A stretch of 59,524 bases of DNA. It comes from Treponema sp. (GTDB lineage: Bacteria > Spirochaetota > Spirochaetia > Treponematales > Breznakiellaceae). This document shows, one piece after another, positions 208 to 55,826 of the stretch (position 1 is the stretch's first letter; each line of letters starts with the position of its first letter). The position numbers and the translations under genes are program-made. The notes beneath the pieces are model-generated. The model ran no database searches. It was not told the origin of the DNA and saw only the letters and a list, made by a program, of their open reading frames with translations. Where the stretch lies: assembly GCA_009781475.1 (NCBI GenBank), contig WQYB01000008.1, positions 1 through 59,524 of the forward strand, written 5' to 3'.

Positions 208-230
208 GGGAGGAATTAAAAAATTTTCAT

Positions 231-340
231 CTCGCAGAGGCGCAGAGACTCAGAGGCGTAGTACGAAAACTTTTTATTTCTCCGTGAAGGCTTGTCCAGC
301 ACCTAAGTTTTAGGTGCTGGATGAATGTACTCCGTGGTTA
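231..340. repeat. CGCAGAG/CTCCGTG palindromic repeat with nested hairpin
   Basis: The left arm is built from CGCAGAGGCGCAGAGACTCAG and the right arm from CTCCGTGAA and TACTCCGTGGTTA, matching the dispersed repeat family of this window. The right arm is interrupted by a perfect 11-bp hairpin, CCAGCACCTAA (296-306) and TTAGGTGCTGG (310-320) with loop GTT. In the copy at 41331-41416 the corresponding site reads CTCCGTGAAACTCCGTGTAC without that hairpin. The copy therefore looks like one element that landed inside another. The whole stretch 84-535 is otherwise free of convincing genes. Confidence 0.75.
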
Positions 341-9475: not shown

Positions 9476-9811
9476 ATGGCAGCGGGAAAATTCACTAAAG
9501 CTGACATTATTGATGCTCTTTATGAAAAAACGGGAATGAGCCGCATTGAAATTCGAAATGCGGTTGATCTTTGTATAGATGAAATGAAAGAAGCTCTTAT
9601 CCGCCGCCAGATTATTGAACTGCGCGGGTTTGGCACTTTCGAAGTAAAGGTTCGTAAAGCCCGTCCAAGAGCGAGAAATCCAAGAACAGGCGAAAGTATC
9701 GTTATCCGTTCACATGGAGTAGTCGCTTTCCGTTCAGGACGGGAATTAAAACAAGCTGTTTGGGCTATTAATAATAATGATGATGACAATAAAGAAAAAC
9801 AGCCGACTTAA
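9476..9811 (+). CDS. HU/IHF-family DNA-binding protein
   Basis: A 111-residue HU-like protein: FTKADIIDALYEKTG helical base, FGTFEVKVRKARPRARNPRTGE beta arm with the DNA-bending ARNPRTGE segment, and VAFRSGRELKQAV near the end. It extends about 15 residues past the usual HU end with an Asn/Asp/Lys-rich tail. It lacks an obvious ribosome-binding site and lies 8 bp behind rpsT, so translation is probably coupled. Its 3' end overlaps the start of lnt by 35 bases. Confidence 0.9.
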   Translation: MAAGKFTKADIIDALYEKTGMSRIEIRNAVDLCIDEMKEALIRRQIIELRGFGTFEVKVRKARPRARNPRTGESIVIRSHGVVAFRSGRELKQAVWAINNNDDDNKEKQPT

Positions 9812-11510
9812 TTCTTTTTTAATCCACCTGGGATTAGTTTTATTATCTTCTCTGCTTTTTACATTATCTTTTCCGAATATTATTTTTGAACATGGTTTAC
9901 CCTTTCTTGCCTGGATTTGTTTGCTGCCGTTTCTGATAATAATTAATAAATATAGTTTATCGGCATGTATAGGATGGGGAGCGATTTATGGTTTTTTCAC
10001 TTACAGTTTATTTAATTATTGGCTTACAACATTTCATCCGACAGCAGGAATAACCACATACAGTATTTATCTTGTTTATCTTGCCGTTGTTTTCTTTTTC
10101 ATGAAACTGGCAGCTATTTTTTTTCCAAAGCGGGTCTATCTTGTTCAATGGGTTATTTGGCTTGCTTATGAATACCTGCGGACTTTAGGGTTTTTAGGTT
10201 ATTCATACGGTGTTATAGGTTATTCACAATGGCAAATAATACCGTTGATTCAAATCGCAAGTATCACAGGCGTTTGGGGAGTAAGCGCACTTGTAGCGTT
10301 CCCCTCCTTCTGGCTTAGCGCTGTATTTACAAAAGATTTCACACGGAGACACGGAGACACGGAGGACACGGGAAATAAAAAGAATAAGTTATCGCAAATT
10401 CAAACTTATATTAACTCCGTGCCTTTGTGCCTCCGTGCGTTAAATTTGAGGATCATTGCTAAGGAAAAATTAACAGCAATTGTTTGGTTGGTTGTGTTAA
10501 TTGGTTCGCTGGTTTTTGGGTTTATCAATATGAAGGATTTTTCGGGTTATCCTACAGTTCAAATCGCGCTTATCCAGCATAATACCGATCCATGGGAAGC
10601 ATCAAAAGCTCCTACACAAATGCAAAAAATCGAAGCGTATCGTAATGATTTGGTTAAATTAACAAGGCTTTCAAACGAGGCTTTGGCTTCAACTCCAAAA
10701 CCAGAACTGGTTGTTTGGCCTGAAACTGCATTTATTCCACGGATTTACTGGCATACTACATACCGGGATGAACAGGAATCCTGGCTGATTGTCAGAGATT
10801 TACTGGAATATCTTTCACATCAAGATGTTCCTTTTTTAATCGGAAATGATGATGCTCGAATGAATCCCGCAATCAATCCTGATGAATACAGAAAACACAG
10901 GGTGGATTATAACGCAGTTATGCTGTTTGAAAATGGAGAAAATACACAAACATACAGGAAAATTCATCTTGTTCCATTTACCGAACATTTTCCGTATAAA
11001 AAACAATTTCCGAAAATCTATGAAATGCTGGAAAATGCAGATACGCATTTTTGGGAAAAAGGTTTTGAAGAAACTGTTTTTACCGTTCCCGGATTTACGT
11101 TTTCCGCTCCGATTTGCTTTGAAGATACATTTGGCTATATTTCCAGAAATTTTGTTTTAAAAGGCGCTGATGTCCTTATCAATGTAACAAATGATGCATG
11201 GGCAAAAAGCCTATCCTCTCAAAACCAGCACCTTACTATGGCAGTTTTCAGATCCGTAGAAAATTTTCGCCCGATGGTACGCTCAACTTCTACAGGGCAA
11301 ACCTGTGCAATCAACCCAAACGGAAGAATTACAGAAATTGCAAAACCTTTCAGCGAAGCCTGGATTAATGCGGCGGTTCCAATTGTAAAAACCACTACAA
11401 TTTATACAATTTACGGTGATTATCTTGGGATTTTCTTTATTATAGCAGCGTTTATCATATTGCTATTCGGAGCATTGTGGTATACAATGAATAAACGAAA
11501 GAAATCTTAG
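9777..11510 (+). CDS. lnt: apolipoprotein N-acyltransferase with a repeat-encoded insertion
   Basis: A 577-residue inner-membrane enzyme that adds the third acyl chain to lipoproteins. N-terminal membrane helices are followed by a nitrilase domain with the triad Glu316 (VVWPETA), Lys395 (YRKIHLVPF) and Cys447 (PICFEDT). The Lys-to-Cys spacing of 52 equals that of the E. coli enzyme as I recall it. The protein is longer than the usual 500-540 residues. Residues about 187-224 (FTRRHGDTEDTG and NSVPLCLRALNL) are encoded by an in-frame copy of the dispersed palindromic repeat, placed before the last predicted membrane helix. Three consecutive ATG codons (9777, 9780, 9783) are possible starts within the HU gene. 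The insertion appears tolerated because the frame and all catalytic residues are intact. Confidence 0.92.
   Translation: MMMTIKKNSRLNSFLIHLGLVLLSSLLFTLSFPNIIFEHGLPFLAWICLLPFLIIINKYSLSACIGWGAIYGFFTYSLFNYWLTTFHPTAGITTYSIYLVYLAVVFFFMKLAAIFFPKRVYLVQWVIWLAYEYLRTLGFLGYSYGVIGYSQWQIIPLIQIASITGVWGVSALVAFPSFWLSAVFTKDFTRRHGDTEDTGNKKNKLSQIQTYINSVPLCLRALNLRIIAKEKLTAIVWLVVLIGSLVFGFINMKDFSGYPTVQIALIQHNTDPWEASKAPTQMQKIEAYRNDLVKLTRLSNEALASTPKPELVVWPETAFIPRIYWHTTYRDEQESWLIVRDLLEYLSHQDVPFLIGNDDARMNPAINPDEYRKHRVDYNAVMLFENGENTQTYRKIHLVPFTEHFPYKKQFPKIYEMLENADTHFWEKGFEETVFTVPGFTFSAPICFEDTFGYISRNFVLKGADVLINVTNDAWAKSLSSQNQHLTMAVFRSVENFRPMVRSTSTGQTCAINPNGRITEIAKPFSEAWINAAVPIVKTTTIYTIYGDYLGIFFIIAAFIILLFGALWYTMNKRKKS
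10338..10443. repeat. CACGGAG palindromic repeat inside lnt
   Basis: The left arm is ACACGGAGACACGGAGACAC followed by GGAGGACACGG; the right arm is AACTCCGTGCC, TTTGTGCC and TCCGTGCG. The reverse complement of the intergenic copy at 20132-20214 matches both arms nearly base for base and shares AAATAAAA next to the left arm. The copy is about 105 bp, with no stop codon in the lnt frame. Confidence 0.85.
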
Positions 11511-20131: not shown

Positions 20132-20214
20132 TCACACAGAGGCACAAAGGCACGGAGTTATAATTCGTTTTATTTTCCGTGTCCTCCGTGCCCCCGTGTC
20201 TCCGTGTGAAATTC
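20132..20214. repeat. CACAGAG/CACGGAG palindromic repeat, intergenic
   Basis: The left arm CACACAGAGGCACAAAGGC and right arm GTGTCCTCCGTG, CCCCCGTGTCTCCGTGTG flank a core AGTTATAATTCGTT. It fills the 143-bp divergent intergenic space between the methyltransferase and the radical SAM gene. Its reverse complement closely matches the copy inside lnt, and its core is shared with the copy at 46695-46774. Confidence 0.85.
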
Positions 20215-20256
20215 TTTAGCTCTAGATTTTTTATTAAATTCTGATTAAATTAAATT

Positions 20257-29109: not shown

Positions 29110-30375
29110 TTAAGGCATTATCACAATTGTTTCAACGCGGGGATTGCGCAGCTGACTGACAGCGCGATCGTACCACTCTCCTGCCTGAGGCTGTGACGCT
29201 AAAAACTCCCAAATTGAACGAGAAACAGCTGTTTTACCGTTTCTAAAAAGGCTGGCTGCAAGATAATAAGTGGTTTTGTAATATTCAACTTCTTCCATGT
29301 ATGATAACAAAAGCTGGTTTCTGTTAATTTCACGAGCTAAATCCTGCAAGTTTGTATATGTAAAATCAAATTGCCGCCTTCTTACTTCCTCAATTATTAT
29401 CGTATTTTGAATAAGGAAAGCAAACATAAGATGATCTTCTGCAGAAGGACGGCCTGAAATAACCAGGTGTAAACCTAAAAGCCTGTGCGCCTGTTCTACT
29501 GTATTATTATTGTAACGGTACATTTCCAAAAAGCGGTTAATACCATGATTTGTTAATGTTGATGTCATTGCAGTCCTTGCAAACGAAGCCGATGCCTGTT
29601 GGTAAGACGGACGCAGCGCTTCTCCTCTTGATCCGGTTTGTGTATTGGCGGCTGCTCTGGCATCTGCCCATAATGTATCTTTATCAGCAATTATTGATTC
29701 TAAAACAATTATCATTTCATCAAACTCTTGTCTTGTTCTTAAAATACTTGCGATTTTATATTGCAATGTCGTACTAAAATTGGGATCTTCCAAATTGGCA
29801 CGCATGGAAAGAGCTCTGCGGTATTGAGACAGCGCAAGAGATAACTCTCCTTCGATGCGGTAAATTTCTCCAATCCAGTATTCCGCTTCGGGATAATCTT
29901 TTAATTTGCCAAGAGCGGTAAGAGCGGCAAGAGCGGAGTTATTAAGGCTTGCTTTAGGAACACGGTAGTATAATTCTTCCAAAGCAGCGGATGCAGCAGT
30001 ATAGTGGCGATCATTTGAAAAGCGTTCTACCCTGTCAAGATAATCTCCTAACCTGCGTACGTCGTTAAGCGAAAGCAAGTTTATTAAATCACGTTCCATT
30101 TGTTCGTACATTGCACGTCTGTTACGCCTTGCATCTTCGAATAACATCAAAGCAGTGCCATAGTCTTGCGAGCGAAACCTTTGTTTGCCGTTTTCAAGTG
30201 AAAGCCACCAGGGAGGATTCGCACCCTGTGCGAAAAGATCTATCGATAGAAATAATAGAAGGATAATCAACCACAAACCACACGAACTCCACGAACCCTT
30301 ACTTCGATATCTTATTATTTTTCGTGTTGGTTCGTGTTGGTTCGTGGTAAAATTTTTGGTATCTTTTTCTTTCAT
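29110..30375 (-). CDS. exported tetratricopeptide-repeat protein
   Basis: A 421-residue exported protein with helical TPR-like repeats (YGTALMLFEDARRNRRAMYE, AEYWIGEIYRIEGELSLALS, QYRRALSMRANLEDPNF). The predicted signal peptide (GLWLIILLLFLSIDLFAQG) is preceded by about 30 residues derived from a dispersed repeat (NQHEPTRK, SWSSCGLW). The start overlaps the ispG stop by four bases (ATGA), so it is translated with ispG. Cleavage probably follows FAQ. TPR proteins of this type in treponemes work as envelope scaffolds; no specific partner is known. Confidence 0.8.
   Translation of the reverse strand: MKEKDTKNFTTNQHEPTRKIIRYRSKGSWSSCGLWLIILLLFLSIDLFAQGANPPWWLSLENGKQRFRSQDYGTALMLFEDARRNRRAMYEQMERDLINLLSLNDVRRLGDYLDRVERFSNDRHYTAASAALEELYYRVPKASLNNSALAALTALGKLKDYPEAEYWIGEIYRIEGELSLALSQYRRALSMRANLEDPNFSTTLQYKIASILRTRQEFDEMIIVLESIIADKDTLWADARAAANTQTGSRGEALRPSYQQASASFARTAMTSTLTNHGINRFLEMYRYNNNTVEQAHRLLGLHLVISGRPSAEDHLMFAFLIQNTIIIEEVRRRQFDFTYTNLQDLAREINRNQLLLSYMEEVEYYKTTYYLAASLFRNGKTAVSRSIWEFLASQPQAGEWYDRAVSQLRNPRVETIVIMP
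30269..30349. repeat. CACGAAC/TTCGTG palindromic repeat at a signal peptide
   Basis: The left arm is AACCACAAACCACACGAAC and the right arm TTCGTGTTGGTTCGTGTTGG plus TTCGTGGTAAAATTTTT. The element spans codons about 9 to 36 of the TPR gene at 29110-30375, forming its positively charged start and the beginning of the hydrophobic signal core. A sister copy has the same position in the gene at 44293. Confidence 0.8.
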
Positions 30376-41330: not shown

Positions 41331-41416
41331 AACCACAGAGGACACGGAGGAACACAGAGGTTTTAGTACAAAAACTCTACCTACTCCGTGAAACTCCGTG
41401 TACTCCGTGGTAAATT
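41331..41416. repeat. CACAGAG/CACGGAG palindromic repeat, intergenic
   Basis: AACCACAGAGGACACGGAGG and the complementary CTCCGTGTACTCCGTGGT flank ACAAAAACTCTACC. It lies in the gap upstream of yajC and downstream of the TPR lipoprotein gene. It is the clearest uninterrupted member of the AACCACAGAG subtype. Confidence 0.85.
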
Positions 41417-44293: not shown

Positions 44294-45687
44294 TGCAAAA
44301 ATATTTTACAATTATTAACCACGAACCATCACGAACCATCACGAAAATCAAGAAGATTTCGAATACCAAGTTCGTGTGCGTACCGCAGGTACGTTTCGTG
44401 TGGTTTGTGGTAAAATTTCTATTATTAATCAATGTAAATATAGTTTTTGCGCAAGAGGAAGAAAGGCCGATGCGGACAGAAGCGCCGAATGCACGCCAAA
44501 CGGCACAAATAACTAGATCTTCCTTTAACATATCACAGCCTGCGGCTAATTCACTGCTTACAGAAAAAGCATTAGAACAGGCTTTAACACAGCATTACAT
44601 CGAACAATATTCAAGTGCACGGGGTATTGCAAATTTAAATGTAATTATGGATCGTGCAAGCATTTATATGCCTTTTATAAGAGAAGAAGTTAAAAAACGC
44701 GGTTTACCGCCTGAATTAATTTATCTTCCCATTATTGAATCCGGGTTCCAAATAACCGCAAGAAGCCGCTCGGGAGCGATGGGTTTATGGCAATTTATGA
44801 TGAATAGTATCGCTCCTTATGACATGAAGGTAACTGATTTAATTGATGAACGCCGTGATTTTATTAAATCAACAAGAGGTGCGCTTCAAAAACTTGAAGA
44901 TGAATATGGCAGACTTGGCTGCTGGGAATTAACACTGGCTGCATATAACTCAGGGCTTGGAGCTGTAACCCGTACCATTCAAAGAACAGGAAGAGATTGT
45001 TATTGGGAATTAAGCAATAGAAGGGAATTAAGAGCAGAAACCATAAATTTTGTACCAAGATTAATTGCTGTTTCTTATGTAATGTCTAAACCCAGAAAAT
45101 ACGGAATTAATATTTGGCATGAAAGGTTCGAATGGGTTGCAATTCCATTGGAACGTCAGGTTTCTATCGATATTATCGCAGATGAAATAGGCATTGACAG
45201 GGCTTTAATGCGTCAATTAAACGCCGAACTATTGCACGGGATAAGCCCTTTAGGTACGGGTCATTTATTAAAAATCCCGGCAGAGTATCATGATCTAACT
45301 GTCAGTGTCCTTGAAAGAGACGATTTGCCTTTGATTCGTTATCATTACCATGTTGTCCGCCAGGGGGATACGCTTTGGTCTATGTCAAGAAATTACGGCG
45401 CTTCTTTGAGCATGATAGAACAGCATAACCCCGGCATTTCTGACCGCTATCTTAGAATCGGCGAAACAGTTGTAACACCGGCATATCCCGGCGTTTCCGC
45501 TCCTTCAAGTTCAACCCCTGCGGTAAATCAGGCAAATAGCGGCACTCATGTGGTTCAAAGAGGCGAAACTTTCTGGTCTATAGGCAGAAGATACGGTATT
45601 GATCCGCAAGCTATAGCTGAAGCCAATGGCATGAAATTAGATGATATTCTGCATGCAGGAAGAACCCTAAGATTGCCGATAAGATAA
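44293..45687 (+). CDS. LysM-containing lytic transglycosylase (MltD-like)
   Basis: A 464-residue exported enzyme if started at GTG 44293, which overlaps the previous stop and follows a GGAGAG site. The SLT domain has ELIYLPIIESGFQITARSRS with the catalytic Glu, GAMGLWQFM and LAAYNSGLGAV. Two LysM repeats follow (HVVRQGDTLWSMSRNYGASL, HVVQRGETFWSIGRRYGIDP). The first 45 or so residues come from a dispersed repeat: INHEPSRTITK and RFVWFVVKF, with RFVWFVVKFLLLINVNIVFAQ serving as the signal core. It cleaves peptidoglycan glycan strands in the periplasm. Confidence 0.9.
   Translation: MQKYFTIINHEPSRTITKIKKISNTKFVCVPQVRFVWFVVKFLLLINVNIVFAQEEERPMRTEAPNARQTAQITRSSFNISQPAANSLLTEKALEQALTQHYIEQYSSARGIANLNVIMDRASIYMPFIREEVKKRGLPPELIYLPIIESGFQITARSRSGAMGLWQFMMNSIAPYDMKVTDLIDERRDFIKSTRGALQKLEDEYGRLGCWELTLAAYNSGLGAVTRTIQRTGRDCYWELSNRRELRAETINFVPRLIAVSYVMSKPRKYGINIWHERFEWVAIPLERQVSIDIIADEIGIDRALMRQLNAELLHGISPLGTGHLLKIPAEYHDLTVSVLERDDLPLIRYHYHVVRQGDTLWSMSRNYGASLSMIEQHNPGISDRYLRIGETVVTPAYPGVSAPSSSTPAVNQANSGTHVVQRGETFWSIGRRYGIDPQAIAEANGMKLDDILHAGRTLRLPIR
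44315..44416. repeat. CACGAAC palindromic repeat at a signal peptide, with nested hairpin
   Basis: The left arm is TTAACCACGAACCATCACG and the right arm TTTCGTGTGGTTTGTGGT. Near the right arm, CGTACC-GCA-GGTACG, an extra small palindrome, interrupts the expected TTCGTG series. The element lies fully inside the transglycosylase gene and codes for the N-terminal region and part of the signal core, as in the copy at 30269-30349. Confidence 0.78.
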
Positions 45688-45705: not shown

Positions 45706-45792
45706 AAACCACAGAGGACACGGAGTTTCACAGAGTTTTTTCTTCGAATATTCTTCCTTCCTCCGTGTTACTCCGTGTACTCCGTGGTTATT
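45706..45792. repeat. CACAGAG/CACGGAG palindromic repeat, intergenic
   Basis: AACCACAGAGGACACGGAG and the right part CTCCGTGTTACTCCGTGTAC plus TCCGTGGTTA surround TTTCACAGAGTTTTTTCTTC. It fills the 125-bp gap between the transglycosylase and the exported protein at 45813. Confidence 0.85.
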
Positions 45793-46694: not shown

Positions 46695-46774
46695 CCTCTC
46701 GCAAAGGCGCAGAGACGCAGAGTTATAATTCGTTATCTTTACTTTGTGTTCTCCGTGTACTCCGTGTTTAAATT
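46695..46774. repeat. CGCAGAG/CACGGAG palindromic repeat between converging genes
   Basis: The left arm CTCGCAAAGGCGCAGAGACGC and the right CTCCGTGTACTCCGTGTTTA flank AGTTATAATTCGTT, a core also found at 20132-20214. The right part lies inside the 3' end of the transporter gene at 46739, whose last residues NTEYTENTK it encodes. Confidence 0.82.
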
Positions 46775-50850: not shown

Positions 50851-51598
50851 TATTTATTTCATCATCTTCAATTTGCAAACCTGCTTTAATACCTATTTTT
50901 CTTAAACCTGCAAGAAGCGGTACTCCTACAAGCGCAGCGCCCAACGCAAAAATCATCCGTTCAATAGGTGAAATAATTATAAGCCCAACCCAAATATCCG
51001 CCGGTGTTTTTCTAATAACAAGGCTGAAGAAGTTTCCTATAGTGGCTCCGGCTATTAGCCCTCCGTATGCGAATAACCAAAGCGCTATAAAATTAAATAT
51101 ACGTTCTTTGGTTTTATACATTTGCCTTGCAAATAAAATTGCGGTTATCGCTATAATAAAACCTGAACCGTATACAATAACCGGATATAAAATAACATTT
51201 CTGCCAATTTCCTGTGTAAACCAAAGAATTGTACCAATGATATAAACAATAATTGCTCCGTTAAAAACAAAATTTCCGTCTTCTCTTATTGAAACAGGAG
51301 GCCATTTTCCCCAAGCTATACAGCCTGTTACAAATGCAGTTACAGTTCCCGGGATAAAAGTTCCAAAACCTATCCATGCTGTGTGCGGCGCAATAATAGA
51401 ACCGATAAAACCGCCGACTGCCGAACATAAAGCGCCTATTATAGGTCCGAATAAAATTCCTGATAATGGATTAAGTATATTTGCAAACGAGAATGAACCT
51501 CCTCCCAATATTGGAAAAGTAGGTATTAAATATCCCGAGGCTACAACAGCTGCCCATACAGCCATTACAGCAGGGTGTACATTAAATTTTTTACTCAT
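50840..51598 (-). CDS. ECF transporter S component
   Basis: A 252-residue membrane protein with about six helices, with SFSFANILNPLSGILFGPII and GALCSAVGGFIGSI, the small-residue-rich pattern of ECF substrate-binding subunits. Its place after the ATPase and T-component genes fixes the role. The vitamin or ion bound is unknown. A C-terminal acidic tail (QIEDDEINNES) is unusual. Start ATG 51598 overlaps the end of the ATPase gene by eight bases. Confidence 0.8.
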   Translation of the reverse strand: MSKKFNVHPAVMAVWAAVVASGYLIPTFPILGGGSFSFANILNPLSGILFGPIIGALCSAVGGFIGSIIAPHTAWIGFGTFIPGTVTAFVTGCIAWGKWPPVSIREDGNFVFNGAIIVYIIGTILWFTQEIGRNVILYPVIVYGSGFIIAITAILFARQMYKTKERIFNFIALWLFAYGGLIAGATIGNFFSLVIRKTPADIWVGLIIISPIERMIFALGAALVGVPLLAGLRKIGIKAGLQIEDDEINNES

Positions 51599-53096
51599 AC
51601 TGCTTCCTTGTATCTGATATTATTCCGGTTTTATCCAGTCTAATTACTCTGTGCGCAAAATCGTCTACTAAGAACATATTATGCGTAACAAAAATAATTG
51701 TAAAGCCCTTTTTATGAAGATCATTTGTTATACTCATAATTTCCAGACATCCGCGGTAATCATTTCCAACATCAACTTCATCAAATATAATTATTTTACA
51801 ACCCATCGCAAGAACACATGCGATTACAATTTTTGTCCGTTCTGTTTTACATAAAGCAAATGGAAAATCCTCTGGTTTAGATAAACCCACAGTATCAAGG
51901 GCTTCTTCTACACGTTTTTTTATCTCCATTTTCGGCAGACGTTTATTTTTAAGAGCAAAAGCCACTTCGTTATAAACAGAATCGGTAAAAAGCTGTGTGT
52001 CGGGATTTTGCATAACAAAACCTACTTCTTTGGAAATATCACCAATTGTCATTTCTTTTATATTCCTGCCGTGCAGAAAAATATCTCCGCTGCATGGGCG
52101 CAAAAGCCCTGTAATATTTTTTAGAAGTGTTGTTTTCCCGCAGCCGTTCTTTCCTGTAATTGCTATAAAGTCATTTTCGTAAATTGCCAGATTAATATTT
52201 TCGATACCACCGCCATTTGGATACATATAACACAAATTACTCACACGGAGACACGGAGACACGGTGGACACGGAGGTAGAAGAAGAATTATTTAAAAAAC
52301 TCTGTGCCTCTGTGCCTCTGTGTGAATTTCTTCTGTTTATTGGTCTAATACCGGTGGATTCCAGTAATTCGCTATTTTCAAAAATATTTTTTGCAGTGTC
52401 TAACGCTGCGATGCGTCCCTGCTTTAAAATACAAACCCTGTCTGCGTATTCTGCCATTTTTTCACTTTCATGTGCCGCCATTATTACAGTTATTTGATAT
52501 TTTTCCTTTAATCTTTTTAATACTGATAAAAATTCATCAGCGCCGTCAGGATCAAGGCGGCAAAGCGGTTCATCCAAAACAATTATTTTACTTTTCATAG
52601 CAATAATAGCAGCTATGCAAAGACGCTGCTTTTCGCCGCCGGAAAGGGTAACAGGAGATCTGTCTTCAAAACCTGTAAGTCCTGTAACAGAAAGAGCATA
52701 TTCCACCCTGTCAATTATTTCCTGTACAGGCAATAATAAGTTTTCAGGACCAAAAGCAGCTTCGTCTCTTACTGTCGAAGTAAATAACTGAACATCAGGA
52801 TCATCAAAAACCATCCCAGCCTTATGCGCCAGCTTCGCCACTGTAGATTCTTTTGTACATATACCGTCAACCGTAATACTTCCTGTAAGTTTACCGCCGT
52901 AAAAATGGGGAATAATTCCATTAATAAGTTTACATAAAGTTGTTTTACCACAGCCGTTTTCTCCCATTATTGCAATAAATTCGCCGCTGTAAACGCAAAA
53001 ACTTATTTCTTTAAGAGCATTTACTTCTGTGTCCGGATATTTATAGCTTATATTATTGAAATTAATTATATTTATTAATCCATTTTCTTCATTCAT
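51591..53096 (-). CDS. ecfA: fused ECF transporter ATPase (EcfA-EcfA')
   Basis: A 501-residue protein with two ABC domains. The first (1-245) is complete: GENGCGKTT (Lys51), LSGGEKQRL (about 149-157), IIVLDEP. The second (290-501) has GKNGCGKTT (Lys321) and MQNPDTQLF, but the signature region reads LCKTERTK (about 414-421) instead of LSGGQ and the Walker B is IIIFDEVDVGND, so one of the two ATP sites should lack a proper signature. The linker (about 256-286) is encoded by a dispersed repeat: SHRGTEAQ and VSTVSPCLRV. Confidence 0.9.
   Translation of the reverse strand: MNEENGLINIINFNNISYKYPDTEVNALKEISFCVYSGEFIAIMGENGCGKTTLCKLINGIIPHFYGGKLTGSITVDGICTKESTVAKLAHKAGMVFDDPDVQLFTSTVRDEAAFGPENLLLPVQEIIDRVEYALSVTGLTGFEDRSPVTLSGGEKQRLCIAAIIAMKSKIIVLDEPLCRLDPDGADEFLSVLKRLKEKYQITVIMAAHESEKMAEYADRVCILKQGRIAALDTAKNIFENSELLESTGIRPINRRNSHRGTEAQSFLNNSSSTSVSTVSPCLRVSNLCYMYPNGGGIENINLAIYENDFIAITGKNGCGKTTLLKNITGLLRPCSGDIFLHGRNIKEMTIGDISKEVGFVMQNPDTQLFTDSVYNEVAFALKNKRLPKMEIKKRVEEALDTVGLSKPEDFPFALCKTERTKIVIACVLAMGCKIIIFDEVDVGNDYRGCLEIMSITNDLHKKGFTIIFVTHNMFLVDDFAHRVIRLDKTGIISDTRKQYE
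52241..52330. repeat. CACGGAG/CACAGAG palindromic repeat inside ecfA
   Basis: TCACACGGAGACACGGAGAC, CACGGTGGACACGGAGG on the left and CTCTGTGCCTCTGTGCCTC plus TGTGTGAAT on the right. It sits exactly in the linker between the two ATPase domains and stays open in the gene's frame. It closely matches the copies in lnt (10338-10443) and at 20132-20214. Confidence 0.85.
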
Positions 53097-53119
53097 TTTT
53101 CATTACTCTCGGCGCTGTG

Positions 53120-55794: not shown

Positions 55795-55826
55795 TTTACC
55801 ACGAACCACACGAACCATCACGAAAT
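55795..55826. repeat. single CACGAAC repeat arm
   Basis: TTTTACCACGAACCACACGA followed by ACCATCACGAAA matches the left arm of the CACGAAC subtype. The expected right arm is absent; only GGTAAAG follows about 25 bases later. It lies between prs and the glpK end. Confidence 0.65.

Follow-up and report, generated by a model that had tools for sequence, protein, structure and literature searches.

The window, that is, the whole 59,524-nt stretch of Treponema sp. contig WQYB01000008.1 that was analysed, carries an lnt gene whose 577-aa product is encoded without internal stops (open reading frame 9777-11510) and was identified in a profile search by its match to TIGR00546 (308 bits, the cut-off being 133). 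The gene contains an in-frame near-palindrome, relatives of which are found elsewhere in the window:

9777..11510, plus strand: lnt, apolipoprotein N-acyltransferase, 577 aa, LNT_N and CN_hydrolase domains, triad E316/K395/C447
10338..10443, plus strand: in-frame palindromic element, 106 nt, coding for approximately Lnt residues 188-222
10339..10372, plus strand: left arm of the lnt element, TCACACGGAGACACGGAGACACGGAGGACACGGG, tandem octamers
10414..10437, minus strand: right arm of the lnt element, inverted tandem octamers, reading ACTCCGTGCCTTTGTGCCTCCGTG on the plus strand
20132..20214, no strand assigned: intergenic copy closest to the lnt element, inverted, 91% identity over 55 nt (20163-20217)
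230..340, no strand assigned: diverged copy, CGCAGAG left arm, right end CTCCGTGG
41333..41409, no strand assigned: intergenic copy, AACCAC-ended subtype, missing from the syntenic site in related species G017
45709..45786, no strand assigned: intergenic copy, AACCAC-ended subtype
46697..46768, no strand assigned: hybrid copy, CGCAAAG-type left arm and CACGGAG-type right arm
51594..53099, minus strand: open frame of an ECF-type double ATPase, holding the second in-frame copy
52241..52325, minus strand: second copy read in frame, located where a linker joins the domains of the ECF-type double ATPase, common to G017 and in frame there

A palindromic insert in a variable loop of Lnt

The lnt element reads TTCACACGGAGACACGGAGACACGGAGGACACGGG...AACTCCGTGCCTTTGTGCCTCCGTGCGTTAA, and the segment that it contributes to Lnt includes the FTRRHGDTEDTGNK region. 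Its folding energy is -35.0 kcal/mol (z = -4.7), a stability reached by none of 200 shuffled sequences. A known RNA family was considered for the element and rejected, the only Rfam matches being sub-threshold plant miRNA hairpins that were taken as chance.

Because the element keeps the frame and adds no in-frame stop, both the Lnt frame and the catalytic triad are preserved. An earlier note, made from sequence alone, had described an in-frame palindromic repeat inside lnt, an intact Glu316-Lys395-Cys447 triad and a 52-residue Lys-Cys spacing, all of which held; its placement of the insert before the last membrane helix held only in part, as helix 232-250, which follows the insert, is the last of the N-terminal membrane domain and a further helix spans residues 550-568. 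The topology of E. coli Lnt implies that the insert-bearing loop should be cytoplasmic. From the sequence alone it is inferred that the cell probably produces Lnt with some 36 additional residues and that this enzyme may be active. The alternative of a pseudogenic or chimerically assembled lnt, with an untranslated insert, draws on the fragmentation of the assembly (216 contigs) and is very unlikely; against it stand the unbroken 577-codon frame, the intact triad, the lack of any other lnt copy in a search of this genome (93% complete) and two other proteins in which an insert of this kind stays in frame in two species. The pseudogene with an intact second copy that the earlier note had named as a refutation is thus not what was found.

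Lnt was compared with its orthologues, the earlier note having proposed this as a check for an exactly matching gap: at the insertion point, the loop of many genus members is short and free of repeats, and loop length ranges from ~18 to 61 aa, too variable for the exact gap to be resolved. Five species, the source included, have tandem repeat units in this loop; the remaining 33.5 kb of the compared lnt genes contain none. Three of the four congeners with loop repeats carry clearly other types or independent ones. The unit is CACGGAG in the source and in L041 (there of the AACCAC-ended subtype), CACGAACC in L034 and CGCAAAG in L037; the loop of L033 also matched the tandem-unit search, and this match was not inspected. 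That some other species have different repeats here suggests that insertion has happened more than once, and not that the loop was inherited from an ancestor. Orthologues sharing the loop with unrelated codons, the other stated refutation, were not met in that simple form; some species instead carry their own, different repeats.

Growth of the loop in place by octamer slippage, yielding a hairpin without any mobile element, would account for the tandem-octamer arms and for the variable loop length across the genus. It is nevertheless very unlikely, given that the right arm is inverted, that the element strongly resembles dispersed copies such as 20163-20217, and that the same loop holds different repeat types in other species.

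A dispersed repeat family with in-frame copies

That the lnt element belongs to a repeat family is shown by the recurrence of the motif CTCCGTGNCTCCGTG, found 11 times in the window (with up to 2 mismatches) against 0.02 occurrences expected by chance. A genome search for the repeat lists 72 matches, and a census restricted to the window and twenty 20-kb stretches, not the whole genome, counted 28 paired copies in 459.5 kb. Many copies are shorter (~75-100 nt) than the 106-nt lnt element, and half copies and hybrid arms are common. The nearest sister of the lnt element is the inverted intergenic copy at 20132-20214, as the earlier note had stated. The family meets the criterion of dispersed palindromes (~100-150 bp) for elements like the Rickettsia palindromic elements (RPEs) and that of terminal inverted repeats for miniature inverted-repeat elements (MITEs).

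Insertion in frame within conserved protein genes, a further criterion, is also met. Seven of the 28 paired copies lie in frame inside open reading frames, counting only those flanked on each side by 50 or more codons: in lnt, an ECF ATPase fusion, a dehydrogenase E2 subunit, a QueH-TcdA fusion, an N-acetylmuramoyl-L-alanine amidase (the least secure of the seven, its insert being near the N-terminus), an ATP-grasp protein and a glycosyltransferase-methyltransferase. Apart from Lnt, these names rest on sequence inspection without a family search. Several of the copies occupy inter-domain linkers, and the elements have on average 3.4 of 6 frames open, compared with 1.8 of 6 after shuffling. G017, a species ~75% identical to the source (G000), has the QueH-TcdA and ECF inserts as well, and they remain in frame there despite indels, so that in-frame reading and conservation are shown for these two proteins; the retention of the frame in two species is indirect support, by inference, for a translated insert. 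The shared elements are 94-96% identical between the two genomes, the flanking coding DNA 77-86%. In the QueH-TcdA linker of another congener, G006, a different insert, of the CGCCAAGG type, is found at the same place. With many short-loop orthologues, no second lnt and six further in-frame copies, the interpretation of the lnt repeat as an RPE-like, protein-invading palindrome is supported; the second in-frame case in the window had been overlooked by the earlier note, as had the gene cassettes described below, the likely parents of the repeats.

Short palindromes with an intergenic bias could also be read as REP sequences that owe their spread to a tyrosine transposase of the RAYT type, and REPs inside genes are known (PMC3733652). 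This reading was rejected as very unlikely, since Y1_Tnp was not found in the ~93% complete genome by a search that was positive in 5 of 14 control genomes.

Several separate observations concern the family and its relatives. At window 52241-52325 and at L179 1138-1213, the elements are more conserved than the surrounding coding DNA in the G000/G017 comparison. A second repeat family, CACGAACC, is present in the window at 30281-30346, 44320-44336 and 55800-55815. The same intergenic sites hold different palindrome types in two related species (L177 6119, L180 17886 and L189 17468, each compared with G017). At L189 18199-18399 and in L315 of G017, arms flank the C-terminal part of an apparent TruB; both arms and the interior differ between the two (CACGGAG versus CGCAAAG), and the outer flanks are ~88% identical.

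GxxExxY cassettes and their decay

The genome search returned a single GxxExxY gene (PF13366/TIGR04256), placed exactly between TTCACACGGAGGCACAGAGACACGGAGG and an inverted counterpart, and the arms of the lnt element match these flanking arms, which satisfies the criterion for membership in the proposed GxxExxY cassette family. An AlphaFold2 model of the GxxExxY protein (pLDDT 96, built from 38 sequences) has a PD-(D/E)XK fold, with invariant D67, E77 and K79; the D...ExK motif is intact, and membership of PF13366/TIGR04256 is met. The best structural match of the model is Cas4 SSO0001, followed by restriction enzymes and Holliday-junction resolvases, and the Z values, which come from a predicted structure, indicate a shared fold only.

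The cassette anatomy is shown by a comparison across phyla, in which arms were scored as matched when the upstream and downstream flanks formed inverted repeats with a score of at least 18. Matched inverted arms surround 67% of 76 GxxExxY genes, as opposed to 1.8% of 569 other open reading frames at the same loci, and 6% reach the arm score in a mismatched-flank control; the loci were ranked by similarity to the query and weighted to Bacteroidota, so that the figure of 67% is not unbiased. Within the genus, the type of arm goes with the clade of the nuclease (CACGGAG or CGCAGAG, CACGAACC, CACGGATT and AACCACAGAG). Across phyla, arms resemble one another more where nuclease identity is higher (Mantel r = 0.43, p ≤ 0.0005), shared genome ancestry not having been factored out. 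Arm-only relatives lie near some cassettes (for example L115 16720-16822); further arm copies within ~10 kb are seen at only 18 of 72 cassette loci, compared with 8% for random pieces. Repeats of the CACGAACC type are present in G000, although the search there returned no GxxExxY gene from the corresponding clade. No GxxExxY match was obtained among the phages searched; one was obtained among viral contigs and six among plasmids, all of the latter predicted to be non-mobilizable.

Three side observations were made on individual cassettes. The CACGAACC arms correspond to those of another GxxExxY clade, seen in congeners. The GxxExxY gene of the viral contig L169 has inverted tandem arms of the CGGAATAAA type. 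Cassettes L107, L115, L134, L161 and L165 start at, or no more than ~20 bases from, the stop codon of the upstream gene, and in L134, L161 and L165 the arm overlaps the upstream TAA.

Decay of a cassette is shown at a Nostoc locus with well-conserved flanks, which was read in 40 species. The nuclease gene between the arms is intact in 26 of these and evolves under purifying selection (omega ~0.13), while L357, L371 and L374 have internal deletions, L365 and L373 are reduced to arm-only hairpins and L363 to a minimal remnant; in the more distant species L375 and L392, which served as outgroups, the arms are missing. This series establishes that hairpins can arise from cassettes, an origin in situ that demonstrates derivation and not mobility, and that does not cover the lnt copy itself. 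In L360, also from Nostoc, most of the nuclease gene between the arms has given way to an open-reading-frame fragment that resembles a transposon gene (TnpB, by eye).

Insertion junctions were less informative. In Hymenobacter the cassette is present in some genomes and absent from others, with intergenic DNA too diverged for a readable junction, and the closest G000/G017 pair (L008, flanks ~95%) also differs beside the element; neither the Hymenobacter nor the G000/G017 comparisons resolved a clean empty site or a target-site duplication.

Origin of the hairpins and relation to known systems

The lnt element is best explained as, and in our view is likely to be, a MITE-like, non-autonomous hairpin of the GxxExxY-cassette family in a permissive loop, its mobilisation by the nuclease being inferred. 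The cassette consists of one small PD-(D/E)XK nuclease gene between terminal inverted repeats made of tandem octamers (CACGGAGN), and in the proposed mechanism the lnt hairpin would represent the two cassette arms without that gene, having entered a length-variable and probably cytoplasmic loop of Lnt. The cassette nuclease would spread such arm-only hairpins in trans by binding or cutting the arms, an inference for which there are no binding or cutting data; the arms may be extruded as a hairpin or cruciform, and repair or recombination, perhaps provoked by the nuclease, would copy the element to new sites.

The main rival, which remains possible, is that the repeats are RPE-like selfish palindromes moved by unknown or host machinery, with GxxExxY and PF05635 genes as passengers that are trapped by the arms or benefit from them. 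It is favoured by the same arm anatomy around two unrelated small proteins, GxxExxY and PF05635, by arm types for which no matching nuclease was found in the same genome, and by the frequency of half copies and hybrid arms. Against it, by the frequencies and correlation given above, possession of the arms is a specific feature of GxxExxY genes and the arm sequence varies together with that of the nuclease, and the nuclease gene is under purifying selection in Nostoc.

A bolder extension of the preferred, nuclease-based reading is that GxxExxY genes and their tandem-octamer arms form a widespread, so far undescribed class of mobile element with a single PD-(D/E)XK nuclease gene and without a known transposase, spawning arm-only hairpins that enter proteins in frame and reshape inter-domain linkers, and paralleled by a class built on the PF05635 four-helix protein; we offer it tentatively, the balance of evidence falling a little short of it.

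Protein-invading palindromes as such are known. The RPEs of Rickettsia and their Wolbachia counterparts (WPEs) are dispersed hairpins of 100-150 bp, some of them in frame in conserved proteins, and, as with the repeats described here, inserts recur in orthologues at identical or neighbouring positions (PMC2229807, PMC3767692). They differ in that the arms here are tandem octamers equal to the ends of nuclease cassettes, and no parent gene of the cassette kind is described for RPEs in the relevant sections of PMC2229807 and PMC3767692. Fusions of MITEs or other repeats with proteins are also known from Neisseria, enterobacteria and archaea (PMC2229807, PMC3767692, PMC3733652); the citation of Rickettsia alone as precedent in the earlier note was accordingly incomplete, Wolbachia and these other groups providing further cases (PMC2229807). 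The REP/RAYT system (REPtron) likewise combines small palindromes, including copies inside genes, with an enzyme gene flanked by related repeats (PMC3733652), but the enzyme here is a PD-(D/E)XK nuclease instead of a tyrosine transposase of the HUH class. Bacterial MITEs (Correia/NEMIS, ERIC, RU-2) share a length of ~100-200 bp, long stem-loops and in-frame fusions to open reading frames (PMC2229807), whereas the junctions examined here did not resolve a target-site duplication and the search did not turn up a parent transposase; the GxxExxY cassette is the candidate for the parental role.

Within the literature searched, from which most subscription journals fell outside the scope, no link between GxxExxY and repeats was found, and the connection to a nuclease thus appears undescribed. 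The mover of bacterial protein-coding palindromes is left open in the literature examined; because the repeats look like stripped-down versions of the GxxExxY cassettes of many phyla, GxxExxY is a concrete suspect for their spread and a testable candidate. If this is true, a common gene of unknown role becomes part of a mobile system. The repeated entry of such elements into conserved proteins at the same linkers makes them a recurrent source of new protein segments.

A known parallel to the cassette is the intervening-sequence ORF of 23S rRNA (PF05635), also a small ORF between inverted arms, which differs in belonging to another protein family and in having heptamer rather than octamer arms; in Coxiella, the intervening sequence with its S23p ORF has been termed a selfish element (PMC4990558). 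In several congeners (L397-L400), genes for PF05635 four-helix (23S IVP) proteins are bracketed by tandem heptamers in inverted orientation, for example GGGGAGT repeats. Because these genes have analogous arms, the cassette protein could be cargo, with the arms moving by other means; the comparison was small and partly by eye, the automatic search for PF05635 open reading frames having missed 6 of 11 loci. Separately, short tandem repeats that resemble the PF05635 heptamer arms were seen in Lnt (L042) and the E2 subunit (L278) of the congener G016.
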